Source: Sphaerochaeta globosa str. Buddy
GTDB taxonomy: Bacteria > Spirochaetota > Spirochaetia > Sphaerochaetales > Sphaerochaetaceae
Assembly (NCBI RefSeq): GCF_000190435.1
Contig: NC_015152.1
Span: forward strand, 2,052,458 to 2,116,457
DNA: 64,000 nt
Direction of reading: 5' to 3'
The position numbers and the translations under genes were made by a program. Of the stretch, positions 43,299 to 52,054 are shown piece by piece. Positions within the stretch are counted from its first letter, which is position 1. Each line of letters starts with the position of its first letter. Below the pieces are notes generated by a model. The model saw only the letters and a program-made list of their open reading frames with translations, made no database searches and was not told the origin of the DNA.

Positions 43299-45938
43299 TT
43301 ACTTATCTTTGTTTTTCCCATCTTCATCGAGCCAGAAGAATGAATCATTCTCGTTCTCTCCCCGTGTCTTGGTTTCACGGAACTTGTCAAAACCATAGGG
43401 TTTGGGGGAAGATTTACGTTCACGCTTCACTCTTGCATCTGCTCCTATCTCATCACGTGGTGCTGAGAATGCAGGACGATCTTCGCTTCTGCGGAATGCA
43501 GGACGTTCGGGCCTGTCGCCGTAGGGTCTTCTCTCTTCACGGTCGCCGGCTGGGCGGTCGCGGAATGAGGGACGATCACCAAAGGGCTTGCGGTCGTCGC
43601 GGTCATGGAACGAAGGACGTTCGGGCCTGTCGCCGTAGGGTCTTCTCTCTTCACGGTCGCCGGCCGGGCGGTCGCGGAATGAGGGACGATCCCCAAAGGG
43701 CTTGCGGTCGTCGCGGTCGCGGAACGAAGGACGTTCGGGCCTGTCGCCGTAGGGTCTTCTCTCTTCACGGTCGCCGGCTGGGCGGTCGCGGAATGAGGGA
43801 CGATCACCAAAAGGCTTGCGGTCGTCGCGGTCATGGAACGAAGGACGTTCGGGCCTGTCGCCGTAGGGTCTTCTCTCTTCACGGTCGCCGGCCGGGCGGT
43901 CGCGGAATGAGGGGCGATCACCGAAGGGCTTGCGGTCGTCACGGTCGCGGAACGAAGGACGTTCGGGCCTGTCGCCGTAGGGTCTTCTCTCTTCACGGTC
44001 GCCGGCTGGGCGGTCGCGGAACGAGGGACGATCCCCAAAAGGCTTGCGGTCGTCGCGGTCGCGGAACGAAGGACGTTCGGGCCTGTCGCCGTAAGGTCTT
44101 CTCTCTTCACGGTCGCCGGCTGGGCGGTCGCGGAATGAGGGACGATCACCAAAAGGCTTGCGGTCGTCGCGGTCGCGGAACGAAGGACGTTCGGGCCTGT
44201 CGCCGTAAGGTCTTCTCTCTTCACGGTTACCGTAGGAGGGACGGTCGCCTGCGGGACGGTCACGGAAAGACGACGGCCTCTCGCTTCTGTCGCCATAGGG
44301 TCTTCTCTCTTCACGATTGCCGTAGGAGGGACGGTCGCCTGCGGGACGGTCACGGAAAGACGACGGCCTCTCGCTTCTGTCGCCATAGGGTCTTCTCTCT
44401 TCACGATTGCCGTAGGAGGGACGGTCGCCTGCGGGACGGTCACGGAAAGACGACGGCCTCTCGTTTCTGTCACCATAGGGTCTTCTCTCATCACGGTTGC
44501 CGTACGCGGGGCGACGGTCATCATGACGAGGGCCTCTCTCTTCATTGCCTGTTCGCTCACGATCCATTCTTGGAGAGCGGGTAGCTTCAGTCTGTTCTGC
44601 TTCCCCGTCCTCTTCAAAAAGCGGAGCAATATCTTCATCATCCCAGTGAAGGGTCAAAAGGTCGTCTTCTACTTCATTGGCTTCGGTTTCATCAGCAGCT
44701 TCTTCAGTATCCTGTTCAAGATCAGAGGACTCTTCTTCCTGTACGGCTTCATCTTGTACACTCTCGGCAACTACGGCTTCTTCCTGTACAATTTCTTCTT
44801 GTGCACTCTCTGCTACTACGACTACGTCTTCTTGTACAGCTTCTTCTTGTGCAATCTCTGCTACAATTTTCTCTTCCTGTACTTCAATGTCTTTCAATGC
44901 TTTTTCTTTTTTCATACTTTCTACATCCACATGTTCTTCACGCTGGTCATTGCCAGCTTTTTTCTCAACGGTCCGCAGATCTGCTGCAGTTATCCGTACA
45001 TCCTGTTGCTTTTGCAGCAACCACGTCCTCGCCGTTCCGAGACGGCGGGTAAACCCAGGGGCTACGACCTGTGTTGTTATCTCTTGAACTTCAAATCCTC
45101 GAACTGCTTTCGTGTCCATCCTGAATGTTCCCAGATTTGTTGAGAACACCAGCTTTCCTTCCCTCGCCAATAGTGCATTCAGCACTTTCATCCAACGCTG
45201 ATAGTCTCTTTGGACATCAAAATCATAATCCATCTTCCTGCTGTTGGAAAAACTCGGTGGATCGAATACGATCAGGTCATACACCTTTCCACTCGAAAGC
45301 GCCTCAACAACATATTGCCACGCATCAGCGGCAATACAAGGATACATTACTGTGCTATACCCATTGTCAGCAAGATTCTTTTGTGCCCATGCAGTATACG
45401 TACTGGACAAGTCCACCGACTCAACGCTGGTGGCTCCTCCCCGGGCTGCATAGACCGAGAAAGCTCCTGTATAGGAGAATAGGTTCAGTACCCTGCAACC
45501 CTGGCTCACCGACTCAACCATCATCCTGGTAAGCATGTGGTCAAGAAACAAGCCAGTATCAATTCGCTTGGTCAAATCTACAGTAAAGAACAATTCATTC
45601 TCTGTGACTTGTAAAACCAACGAAGTTTCGCCCTGCAAGCTGTGTTGTTCCTTGCCGACCCGTTTCGGTCGACGATGGAAAATCACACGGTCTGCCTGAA
45701 TGTAAAGCATACGGGAGACGATATCGCAGCATATCAACTCCTCTTCTTCATCCAAGCCCTCATCACTGTAATCGGTGACCCTTGCATAGGGACCATAGAG
45801 ATCCACAGTAACCGGAAACCTTTCAAGGTTTCGATCATATACTCTCATACAAGTCGTACCGCTCTTAAGCATCATACGGCGCATTTTGAGAGCATTACCT
45901 TTCAAAATCTTGCTAAAATCCTTCTCTGTGTAATCCAT
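43299..45938 (-). CDS. RlmK-like 23S rRNA methyltransferase with long Arg-rich repeat tail
   Basis: Residues about 1-315 match the RlmK half of enterobacterial RlmKL, which makes 7-methylguanosine in 23S rRNA: MRVYDRNLERFPVTVD, DTGLFLDHMLTR, the SAM-binding LNLFSYTGAFSVYAA and the catalytic-type DPPSFSNSRKMDYDFDVQRD. Residues about 330-460 are acidic (many Glu and Val, with repeated AQEE). From about 470 to 850 the protein is tandem repeats of 30 and then 38 residues made of Arg, Asp, Gly, Pro, Phe and Tyr (DRPSFRDRPAGDR), ending in a basic tail. Total length is 879, against about 330-400 for a free RlmK. The RNA-binding role of the tail is inferred from its likeness to arginine-rich tails of RNA helicases. 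No THUMP domain is seen. The AGGAA site supports the start. Confidence 0.85.
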   Translation of the reverse strand: MDYTEKDFSKILKGNALKMRRMMLKSGTTCMRVYDRNLERFPVTVDLYGPYARVTDYSDEGLDEEEELICCDIVSRMLYIQADRVIFHRRPKRVGKEQHSLQGETSLVLQVTENELFFTVDLTKRIDTGLFLDHMLTRMMVESVSQGCRVLNLFSYTGAFSVYAARGGATSVESVDLSSTYTAWAQKNLADNGYSTVMYPCIAADAWQYVVEALSSGKVYDLIVFDPPSFSNSRKMDYDFDVQRDYQRWMKVLNALLAREGKLVFSTNLGTFRMDTKAVRGFEVQEITTQVVAPGFTRRLGTARTWLLQKQQDVRITAADLRTVEKKAGNDQREEHVDVESMKKEKALKDIEVQEEKIVAEIAQEEAVQEDVVVVAESAQEEIVQEEAVVAESVQDEAVQEEESSDLEQDTEEAADETEANEVEDDLLTLHWDDEDIAPLFEEDGEAEQTEATRSPRMDRERTGNEERGPRHDDRRPAYGNRDERRPYGDRNERPSSFRDRPAGDRPSYGNREERRPYGDRSERPSSFRDRPAGDRPSYGNREERRPYGDRSERPSSFRDRPAGDRPSYGNREERRPYGDRPERPSFRDRDDRKPFGDRPSFRDRPAGDREERRPYGDRPERPSFRDRDDRKPFGDRPSFRDRPAGDREERRPYGDRPERPSFRDRDDRKPFGDRPSFRDRPAGDREERRPYGDRPERPSFHDRDDRKPFGDRPSFRDRPAGDREERRPYGDRPERPSFRDRDDRKPFGDRPSFRDRPAGDREERRPYGDRPERPSFHDRDDRKPFGDRPSFRDRPAGDREERRPYGDRPERPAFRRSEDRPAFSAPRDEIGADARVKRERKSSPKPYGFDKFRETKTRGENENDSFFWLDEDGKNKDK
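43501..44500 (-). repeat. In-frame tandem repeats within the RlmK-like gene
   Basis: Two classes. A 114-bp unit recurs with exact 114-bp spacing: GGACGTTCGGGCCTGTCGCC begins at 43501, 43615, 43729, 43843, 43957, 44071 and 44185. A 90-bp unit then repeats three times (TCGCTTCTGTCGCC at 44281 and 44371, a variant at 44461). Copies differ by few bases, mainly synonymous or Arg/His (FRDR or FHDR). This is recent expansion inside a coding frame. Confidence 0.95.
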
Positions 45939-49167: not shown

Positions 49168-51930
49168 TTACTTCACAGGGTAGCTCTTCTTCAGGAACTC
49201 GATGAACACATCGCTCAACAGGGAACCTTCAGTAAGAACCTTACCGAACATGGTGTATCCATCACCGCCGGCAGCCATGAAGTCGTTGGTAGCAACCTTA
49301 TAGGTAGCATTACGATCGATGGCCTTGCCATTGAGAAGGACACGAAGGATGCGCTTGCCAGGGGCTGCAAAGCGGTTGTAAACAACCTGCAAATCAGTCT
49401 GGGAGAATGCACCATTCTGTTCGGGGAGCTTGCTGTAGCCATGCTCGAGAGCTGCATAGACGTCCGAACCCTTCACTTCAACAACAGTAATGATGTTGGT
49501 GAACGGTAGTACGTTAATGACATCGCCCATCGTCACGTTTCCAGCTTTCAGAGATGCGCGGATACCACCACCATTGGTAATGGTGAAGTCAGCACCACTC
49601 TCTGCAGTCATTGCCATGGTGATCAACTTGGAAAGGTTGGTCGCCTTGGTGCGGACGTTTGCACGTTCACCATCCAAGTTCTCAGGCAGTGTAGCAACAA
49701 GAGTGTTCAGCTTCTCGCTCAGCTGTGCAGACATATAACCGACATACTCATCGACCTGAGGATCGTTGGGGATATCAGAAATGCCGTACTGCTTGGCAAG
49801 GGCGGAATCCTTTGCATTCAGGACATCGGCTGCAGGAATCAGCATCGGATAGGTAGCGGTTACCTTACCGTTCTTAACATGCAACTGTACCAGTCCAAGA
49901 TTCTTCAAATAATCGCCAGTCTGAACAACCAGAGTATCACCAATCTTCATGCCCTCTTTGAGCAAGGTGTGACTGTGACCATCAACGAAGAGGTCGATAC
50001 CCTTGATTTTGCTGACAATCTTATCGGTGGTGAGACCGGAAGCTCCATCAGGATCCATACCAATGTGGCCGAGTACGATGATGTAATCAACATACTGTTT
50101 TGCCATATCGATTGCCATCTGGCCAATCTCAAAGATTTCTTCGTTGGCAAAAGTGATGCCTTCGACATTCTTCGGATGGGTCTTGGTGGCGGTATCAGGA
50201 GTGGTCAAACCAACAACAGCAATCTTAAATCCGTTGAAGTTGTACACCTGGTAGGGCTGGAACAGCAGATAGCCATTCTCATCCAATACGTTGGCGGACA
50301 GGACCTTGAGGTCAGTATACTCTTCAGCAAACTTTGCAGCTTCAATAAGACGATCAGCGCCATAGTTGAAGTCGTGGTTGCCTGGAGCAACTGCATCATA
50401 ACCGAGTGTGTCAAGCAGGACTCCTACGGTCTCGCCTTCAAACATGTTCGCAAGATTGGTTCCGTGAGTTACGTCGCCAGCATCAAGTACGAGAATGTTG
50501 TCGGTGAGAGCACGTCCCATCTTGAGCATGGTTGACAGCTTGGAATAACCCATGCCACCGTCAGCAGGAACGATACGTGCATGCACGTCGTTGGAGTGGA
50601 CGATGAACAGATCAAACTCTGCTGTACCTGCATCGTTCTTCACGATTTCGGTAACACCAAGCGGATATTCAACAGCTTTCGGGGCTGCTACTACAGGGGC
50701 GGGAGCCGGGGCGGGTGCTACGGGAGCAGGAGCCGGAGCGGGGGCCGGTGCAGGAGCCGGAGCAGGCACTGCTGCCTTCTTTACCGGGGTCGCACCAATC
50801 TTCGCAACAATGGCCGGATCCTCGGGCACGGTTACCATCAGCGTGTATCCCATCGCTCTGGCAAACGGCTCATAGGTCTTGGCAATTGCACTCTTGGCAG
50901 GCTCGAGAACGTCGGCTACAGGAAGCAGCATCGGATAGACAGCCTTCACTTCGCCATTGACTACGCTCAACTGCACAGCACCAACGCTCTTCAGTTGTTC
51001 GTCAGCCCTGACGATCAGGGTGCCGTTCACGGTCTTCGCCTTCGCAGAACCATTACCGTCAACAATCAAATCGATGCCGTCAATGTTCTGGGCTACCATC
51101 TCACTGGTGATCAGGCCTTCATCGCCCAAATCGCTCAGAATTACCAGGTAGTCAACATAACCCTTGGCAAGGTCGACTGCATACTGGGCACTGTCCAGAA
51201 TGATGTCGCTGGTGAAGCTTACGCCCTGGATCGGCTTCGGGGCTACCAGGCCGGCTACGCCAACCTTGAATCCGTTGAAGTCATAGATCTGATAGGGCTG
51301 GGCAACCAGGTAACCGTTCGCATCGAGGGCGTTTGCACTCAACGGGATGGCCTTCTTCGTTCCGGCGATGCCGGTAGCCAGCTGTATTGCCTGCGGGGTG
51401 TAGGCATCGTAGCCAAGCTCGTCAACGACTTCGGCCGCCAGCATTGCTGCCTGAGCGGGTACCTCACCGACATTGCCGCTGTTCAGAAGCAGCCAGTTGT
51501 CGGAGATCGCACGTCCGGCCTTCAGGGCGGTTGAGAACTTTGCCAGTCCCAGTCCACCGTTCTCGGCATAGATGTTGCCGTTCAGGTCGTTCGTATGCAC
51601 GATGAACAGATCGAATGCTTTCGCTCCGTCATCATTCTTTACAATTTCCTTCACTCCGTAGGGAAGCTCGATCTCTACGGGCTCAGCTACTACAGGGGCC
51701 GGAGCCGGGGCAGGGGCCGGGGCGGGTGCTACGGGAGCAGGGGCCGGGGCTACCGGTGCAGGGGCGGGCTCAGGAACGGGTGCTACGGGAGCCACTGGCT
51801 CGGGAGCAGTTTCTACAACAGGAGCTGGGGGTATTGGTTCAACCTTTGCGGTGCTCTTACAGCCTACAAGGGAAAAAGCCAACAAAGCTACCAGCATTGC
51901 TGTCATAATTGTTCTTGAAAGACGTTTCAC
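49168..51930 (-). CDS. Duplicated 5'-nucleotidase-family lipoprotein, one domain degenerate
   Basis: Envelope nucleotidase of the UshA/2',3'-cyclic phosphodiesterase family. I start it at GTG 51930, since AGGAGG lies 6 bp upstream; this gives 920 residues with a lipobox LVGC (lipidated C24). After a Pro-Ala linker comes a first metallophosphatase domain (from about residue 112) whose metal ligands are lost: HTNDLNG for HTNDxHG, LNSGN for LDAGD, PQAIQL for PGNHDF, DGNGSA for DGHSHT. A second Pro-Ala linker leads to an intact copy (from about residue 445: HSNDVH, LDAGDVTHG, PGNHDFN, GHIG, DGHSHT) and the substrate-specificity C-terminal domain with NGGGIRASL and NDFMAAGGDGY. It probably recovers nucleosides from extracellular nucleotides. 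Confidence 0.9.
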   Translation of the reverse strand: MKRLSRTIMTAMLVALLAFSLVGCKSTAKVEPIPPAPVVETAPEPVAPVAPVPEPAPAPVAPAPAPVAPAPAPAPAPAPVVAEPVEIELPYGVKEIVKNDDGAKAFDLFIVHTNDLNGNIYAENGGLGLAKFSTALKAGRAISDNWLLLNSGNVGEVPAQAAMLAAEVVDELGYDAYTPQAIQLATGIAGTKKAIPLSANALDANGYLVAQPYQIYDFNGFKVGVAGLVAPKPIQGVSFTSDIILDSAQYAVDLAKGYVDYLVILSDLGDEGLITSEMVAQNIDGIDLIVDGNGSAKAKTVNGTLIVRADEQLKSVGAVQLSVVNGEVKAVYPMLLPVADVLEPAKSAIAKTYEPFARAMGYTLMVTVPEDPAIVAKIGATPVKKAAVPAPAPAPAPAPAPAPVAPAPAPAPVVAAPKAVEYPLGVTEIVKNDAGTAEFDLFIVHSNDVHARIVPADGGMGYSKLSTMLKMGRALTDNILVLDAGDVTHGTNLANMFEGETVGVLLDTLGYDAVAPGNHDFNYGADRLIEAAKFAEEYTDLKVLSANVLDENGYLLFQPYQVYNFNGFKIAVVGLTTPDTATKTHPKNVEGITFANEEIFEIGQMAIDMAKQYVDYIIVLGHIGMDPDGASGLTTDKIVSKIKGIDLFVDGHSHTLLKEGMKIGDTLVVQTGDYLKNLGLVQLHVKNGKVTATYPMLIPAADVLNAKDSALAKQYGISDIPNDPQVDEYVGYMSAQLSEKLNTLVATLPENLDGERANVRTKATNLSKLITMAMTAESGADFTITNGGGIRASLKAGNVTMGDVINVLPFTNIITVVEVKGSDVYAALEHGYSKLPEQNGAFSQTDLQVVYNRFAAPGKRILRVLLNGKAIDRNATYKVATNDFMAAGGDGYTMFGKVLTEGSLLSDVFIEFLKKSYPVK

Positions 51931-52054
51931 GTGTTTCCTCCTCATGACGTTCTCATGTGTCGTTGTATACGTACTCAACAACACTATAACACACACTGCT
52001 AGAATCGGATACATCAAAAATACGCGAAAAATGGTGATTTAAGCCCTAATTTGA

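Follow-up and report, generated by a model that had tools for sequence, protein, structure and literature searches.

The window analysed here, a stretch of 64,000 nucleotides from Sphaerochaeta globosa str. Buddy, whose genome is a single contig of 3,316,466 bases, carries on its reverse strand a gene for a putative lipoprotein that contains two copies of a metallophosphatase domain. The product starts with a signal peptide and its lipobox; copy 1 and copy 2 then follow one another, each behind a Pro/Ala linker of its own, and the chain closes with a 5'-nucleotidase C-terminal domain. The features of the locus are the following.

49168..51930, minus strand: whole lipoprotein gene, an open frame of 920 aa with a GTG start
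51930, minus strand: GTG start, read from the sequence, an in-frame ATG at 51945 being a possible alternative
51937..51942, minus strand: Shine-Dalgarno-like AGGAGG, 6 nt 5' of the GTG, found by eye in the sequence
51859..51930, minus strand: signal peptide and lipobox LVGC (Cys24), invariant in 11 aligned two-copy proteins
51667..51843, minus strand: Pro/Ala linker 1, about residues 30-88 (~59 aa), pLDDT <50
50791..51666, minus strand: copy 1, dead metallophosphatase domain, about residues 89-380, from alignment and model
50671..50787, minus strand: Pro/Ala linker 2, about residues 382-420 (~39 aa), mostly pLDDT <50
49726..50664, minus strand: copy 2, live metallophosphatase domain, residues 423-735, with all metal ligands present
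49243..49677, minus strand: 5'-nucleotidase C-terminal (substrate) domain, PF02872, residues 752-896, from Pfam

The next gene on the same strand is a tRNA-Asn gene. A scan for promoters and terminators around the lipoprotein gene gave counts near the shuffle mean (5 against 3.6 and 4 against 3.0). At this gene, the closest relatives with a genus name belong to Sphaerochaeta. The genome of the window also encodes a second, single-copy UshA-like protein of 604 aa (L002, G000:C1:1630166-1630600).

An earlier note on this DNA, made from the sequence alone, had described one dead and one live domain copy in a single chain, each introduced by a Pro/Ala linker that may cross the periplasm or peptidoglycan, and had proposed aligning the two halves and predicting their structure. 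Both linkers are present, and in the full-length structural model (overall pTM 0.54) both are disordered. When the halves are compared by BLASTP, 136 of 320 residues are identical (43%, E 6e-76), and the two copies are therefore the product of a duplication and not of chance. Nine ligand or catalytic positions were compared on the basis of the metal-ligand residues of UshA. At these positions copy 2 reads D-H-D-N-H-N-H-H-H and copy 1 reads D-N-N-A-I-A-D-N-S, eight of the nine being replaced and one kept. All four replacements that had been named for copy 1 (HTNDLNG, LNSGN, AIQL, and DGNGSA) were confirmed, and a fifth one, from LGHIG to LSDLG (H622 to D267), can be added. The Asp of the ND.H motif (D115) is still present in copy 1. 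A single histidine (His 112) and no cysteine are found in residues 87-380, compared with nine histidines in copy 2 (residues 423-735).

Copy 2 harbors the full two-metal set D-H-D-N-H-H-H and is followed by a 5_nucleotid_C domain scoring 135.6 bits against a Pfam cut-off of 23.6. By sequence, the closest solved relative of this live half is 2z1a (E 1.4e-51). The NCBIfam UshA equivalog PRK09558 scores 250.5, below its cut-off of 600, and the live half is therefore not UshA itself. The sequence predicts an active two-metal 5'-nucleotidase, or a related phosphohydrolase, and the lipoprotein probably strips phosphate from nucleotides. Copy 2 and the C-terminal domain, with all metal ligands and both Pfam domains, correspond to the 5'-nucleotidases of the UshA/CD73 kind (PF00149 plus PF02872), from which the window protein differs by the dead catalytic domain and the two Pro/Ala linkers added in front. 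The YfkN-type multifunctional nucleotidases, which are built of two catalytic halves, offer another comparison, as they also carry two metallophosphatase domains per chain and their NCBIfam PRK09419 models match the window protein. However, in clostridial loci such as L070, both copies are intact and the C-terminal domain matches after the first copy, whereas in the window protein the first copy is dead and is not followed by a C-terminal domain.

Pfam recognizes no family in copy 1, even when this copy is submitted alone, and places Metallophos only in copy 2 (443-655). Against solved structures, phmmer gives copy 1 weak matches to UshA and CD73, the best with an E value of 0.0076. The AlphaFold model of copy 1 (pLDDT 84.4, pTM 0.86) aligns with UshA 1ho5 over 276 residues (Z 29.3, rmsd 4.1, tied with other rows), and Foldseek matches it to 1oie at 1.8e-17, although the model leans on live domains, which make up 39 of the 50 rows of the alignment behind it. 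Copy 1 is thus predicted to have kept the fold of the UshA N-terminal domain, with nearly all of the residues of the metal site gone. The acidic residues that are left (D115, D267, and D291) could in principle form a cryptic metal site or serve some other catalytic use, and D115 is kept in 11/11 dead copies and D267 is fixed in 14/14. This alternative appears very unlikely, given that a single histidine and no cysteine are left in the dead domain of the window, that eight of nine ligand or catalytic positions are replaced, and that the first Asp is lost as well in one lineage of dead domains (g13, see below).

The dead copy is not peculiar to the window. Copy 1 is dead and copy 2 intact in 11/11 two-copy proteins (the window protein and those of ten further loci), and D115 of the ND.H motif is conserved in all 11 dead copies; in two of the relatives (L008 and L009), the second linker is almost missing. 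Among ten genomes, the median dN/dS is 0.099 for the dead domain and 0.072 for the live domain, these medians being taken over the 12 of 45 pairs in which both dS values are <1.5. The dead domain is under purifying selection, in agreement with the earlier view that it is retained (dN/dS about 0.1). Another explanation, that the dead copy is a useless and decaying by-product of tandem duplication, would draw on the fact that tandem duplication clearly occurred more than once in the lipoprotein gene. It is the least probable of the alternatives, as dN/dS of the dead domain ranges from 0.045 to 0.156 over the 12 usable pairs at dead-domain dS of 0.09-1.22, and decay without function was rejected on these ratios. 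With its catalytic residues lost, and with its sequence and predicted fold maintained by selection, copy 1 can be regarded as a pseudoenzyme.

In 14 hand-picked dead sequences, the mean entropy of the motif columns of the former site is 0.62 versus 0.75 elsewhere (p=0.19); in 13 live domains, the same columns have a mean entropy of 0.18 versus 0.65 elsewhere (p=1e-7). The former active-site motifs of the dead domains are thus, on average, no better conserved than the background, which speaks against a generally preserved nucleotide pocket. Nevertheless, some local constraint persists around the old metal site. Seven columns are fixed for differing residues in dead and live domains, and the motifs around the former site contain four of them (p=0.017, one-sided Fisher test). 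N150, Q180, Q183, and D267 are fixed in 14/14 dead domains, their live counterparts being invariant in 13, and P-Q-x-x-Q stands in place of P-G-N-H-D in every dead domain of this set. These four residues could form a new site, or could just fill the space vacated by the metals.

Given these four fixed residues, a binding role is the main rival of the spacer reading developed below. The dead domain would then be a binding module, its old metal pocket remodelled for a ligand such as a nucleotide, an envelope glycan, or a partner protein, and it would deliver substrate or target to the live enzyme. Besides the four fixed residues and the enrichment of differing fixed columns in the old-site motifs, the low dN/dS and the presence of dead domains in other proteins speak for this reading. 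It nevertheless faces several difficulties: the average conservation of the former-site motifs does not exceed that of the rest of the domain, other dead lineages carry different letters at those sites, and 48 of 72 classified genomes have another module or a spacer and no dead copy. In addition, nucleotide-binding residues in UshA come from the C-terminal domain, and copy 1 has no such domain. We regard a binding module as a real but distinctly less probable option.

Copy 1 was searched against the 139 genomes of the family, the order-level set consisting of the same 139 genomes; beyond the order, dead copies were sought among loci from a pattern-limited scan. The dead copies are multiplied in tandem in relatives. 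Two of them precede one live copy in five genomes of the same genus (G091, G100, G110, G113, and G115) and three do so in a sixth (G114), and all six assemblies consist of one or two contigs. The DNA identity between dead copies of one gene is 94.8% in G091; in the remaining five genomes it is 99.9-100%, and these five contain exact repeats of 830-1841 nt with units of 996-1023 nt. Between the window, G091, G100, and G114, the first dead copies are 80.8-90.6% identical. G110, G113, G114, and G115 are close kin (96.1-99.7% between dead copies), and for this reason they are not four independent cases. In another genus, G080 carries two 100%-identical dead copies from another dead lineage in front of a live copy. 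G098 combines, in this order, one dead and two live domains in one chain of 1508 residues. A lone dead copy is found in the genome of the window and in G093, both of them assembled as one contig.

Among same-genus genomes with a whole dead-plus-live gene, at least two dead copies are found in 6/8 assemblies of one or two contigs versus 0/9 fragmented ones (Fisher one-sided p 0.002, counts read by hand from tables). G109, an assembly of about 90 contigs, has one copy and G110, a single contig, has two, with dead-domain DNA 100% and live-domain DNA 99.9% identical between them. Repeats may have been collapsed into one copy in the fragmented assemblies, or close strains may differ in copy number.

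Tandem copies also bear on the idea of regulation in cis, in which the dead domain would pack on the live catalytic domain or on its moving C-terminal domain and alter activity or stability. By analogy this would be plausible, as pseudoenzymes that regulate active kin are a described theme (PMC11266112). However, the two halves are separated by a disordered linker of ~39 aa and the full-length model has a pTM of 0.54; moreover, a one-to-one regulator is hard to reconcile with chains in which one live domain follows two or three near-identical dead ones, and with chains that carry dead domains and no live one. Cis regulation thus seems unlikely, though less so than a cryptic metal site.

The region between the lipid anchor and the live enzyme can be viewed as a slot whose content is exchangeable. 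A match was found in 112 genomes, of which 88 yielded a fetched live-domain gene and 24 were left unclassified; removal of 15 genes cut at the 5' end and of a masked one gave 72 classified genomes, an open frame being a condition for being counted and hence no evidence in itself. The slot is filled by dead copies in 23 of these 72 genomes (one copy in 16, two in six, and three in one), by 1-10 copies of an unrelated module of ~85 residues in 32, by a spacer only in 16, and by a second live copy in one. In all 23 dead-copy genomes, the dead copies precede the live domain, and none of the tabulated chains holds both dead copies and the ~85-residue module. A lipobox-like motif is present in 22/23 dead-copy proteins, 27/32 module proteins, 15/16 spacer-only proteins, and the single live-plus-live protein (1/1). 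The estimated length from anchor to enzyme ranges from 50 to 1218 aa across the classified genomes. One copy of the ~85-residue module, submitted alone, has no Pfam family, and a search of the genome of the window, run with no positive control, returned no match to this module.

Several individual loci deserve mention here. L128, with 1762 aa, contains ten ~85-residue modules. The module is also found in frames that have no metallophosphatase domain (L037, L023, L017, L018, and others), and some of these frames sit just upstream of a nucleotidase gene. Among L059, L108, L118, and L125, the S. halotolerans gene reads as N where copy 1 would lie, and so does a part of L125. Finally, L120 (G077) has two metallophosphatase domains, the first of which is intact except for a change from N to E at one ligand position; it possibly represents an early stage of loss.

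Dead domains are not restricted to chains with a live copy. They occur in chains that have none in 13 genomes, a count from which isolated frames that are short or cut (G048, G068, G102, and G104) and a 462-aa frame of G027 were left out. The uncut frames encode 1045-1779 residues, and in 3/13 genomes (G088, G089, and G122) the chain is cut by the end of the stretch read. The chain of this kind in G080 carries three dead copies with 95.6-98.3% DNA identity. The occurrence of dead domains in proteins that have no live one speaks against a role tied to an adjacent live domain. At L122, L126, L130-L139, and L141, the frame read encodes a large protein that has one or three dead domains and lacks a live one. 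Their kind has an N-terminus that is FecR-like below the Pfam threshold in 2/5 proteins (E 0.057 and 0.068) and in 0/4 of another set, and a C-terminus that gives a "barrel-like" impression from its sequence. An 850-residue protein from the genome of the window matches one dead-only protein in its N-terminal part alone, with no dead-domain match.

Phylogenetic analysis gave two pictures of the origin of the dead domains. In a first tree, 11 dead copies formed one clade (100/100) beside the live copies of Sphaerochaeta (96/91), the live copies of L008 and L009 falling outside this group. A tree of 71 domains did not recover the link between the dead clade and the live copies of Sphaerochaeta. 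It contained three supported dead groups, one with Sphaerochaeta and its sister genus g14 (100/100), one with g5, g9, g16, g19, and g20 (99/97), and one with g13 (100/99). The ligand replacements differ between these groups (D-N-N-A-I.., D-L-N-P-A.., and N-K-N-A-G..). Constraining 30 dead domains to a single group lowered lnL by 13.1 and was not rejected (p-AU 0.166); the first copy of G077, changed at one ligand position, was counted among the dead domains in the 71-domain tree and among the live ones in the constraint test.

Taken with the tandem repeats, the exchange of slot content for unrelated repeats and the existence of dead-only proteins make a spacer or scaffold the simplest explanation. 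We give about an even chance to the reading that the pseudoenzyme module is now mainly a spacer between the lipid anchor and a live enzyme of the UshA/CD73 kind, in a protein that would be located at the surface or in the periplasm. Duplication of the catalytic domain gave rise to a copy that lost its metal cage, stayed under selection with its fold predicted to be kept, and would have become mainly a spacer from lipid anchor to enzyme. In relatives the unit, composed of one dead domain and one linker (about 1 kb of DNA), is multiplied, probably because identical copies recombine with each other. Each unit gained or lost would thereby change the reach of the enzyme by a folded domain plus a flexible linker. 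The earlier note stands where it recognized a dead and a live copy and the retention of the former; the binding or regulatory use that it had drawn from this retention is not the best-supported consequence, since tandem copies, slot exchange, and unexceptional conservation of the former site point to a spacer or scaffold instead.

Several points count against a spacer. First, the window gene and that of G093 have a single dead copy in genomes assembled as one contig. Second, the linkers are long and predicted to be disordered, unlike the short rigid joints of classical stalks, and the second one is nearly missing in L008 and L009. Third, a globular domain of ~290 aa is a costly spacer. Finally, the location of four of the seven fixed columns in old-site motifs and the occurrence of P-Q-x-x-Q in 14/14 dead domains count against a pure spacer.

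Pseudoenzymes are commonly explained as regulators or binders. A broader proposal, which we advance tentatively and hold to be somewhat less than evenly probable, is that an enzyme has duplicated its own catalytic domain, disabled the copies, and used them as an extensible stalk of variable copy number. Within one spirochaete order, the slot would be filled alternatively by dead domains of three clades, by the 85-aa repeat, or by plain linkers, so that reach and not catalysis is tuned, and dead modules would also serve in other, probably envelope, proteins. If true, dead enzyme domains would here serve a structural purpose and give spirochaetes a means of setting the reach of an envelope enzyme. 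An annotation gap is also apparent, as the dead domain of the window and the tested 85-aa module have no Pfam family and fragmented assemblies may hide the repeats.

A parallel comes from periscope proteins, in which folded repeats of high identity, present in varying number, hold a functional domain off the envelope (PMC8201768, PMC9704523); the linkers of such arrays are mostly short, exceptions with longer ones being allowed (PMC8201768). In the multi-copy relatives of the window protein, likewise, tandem folded domains of high identity and in differing numbers stand before the functional domain. By contrast, the repeat is here a pseudoenzyme kin to the enzyme, the lipid anchor is N-terminal, and the linkers are long and rich in Pro/Ala. 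Highly identical tandem domains are absent from the window gene and present in 6/8 same-genus genomes of one or two contigs, and the linkers of the window protein (about 59 and 39 aa, pLDDT <50) are not short. With one dead copy and long linkers, the window protein is therefore not classed as a periscope protein. On the best reading, and by analogy, the dead copies would act as a spacer in the manner of variable-length periscope proteins, the building block being a pseudoenzyme derived from the enzyme itself.

Receptor tyrosine phosphatases, with their D1/D2 domains, also combine active and inactive homologous domains in one chain (PMC7320164). They have another fold, however, and here the inactive copy is multiplied in relatives and replaceable by unrelated modules. 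The available text of a further paper lists Sphaerochaeta as positive for both gene kinds and contains no mention of "duplicat", "tandem", "inactive", or "two copies" (PMC10454023). In a limited open-access library, no account of an architecture with a dead copy and a live nucleotidase was found. The same library yielded no description of an enzyme carried on repeats of its own disabled kin, which is weak evidence of novelty.

Elsewhere in the window, the gene at 43299-45938 (minus strand), whose product gives a methyltransferase-like impression, encodes a long tail at the C-terminus, made of repeats that are nearly identical and rich in R, D, P, S, and F. At the DNA level, this tail has periods of 114 and 90 with matches of 95-96%, and it contains long overlapping open frames.
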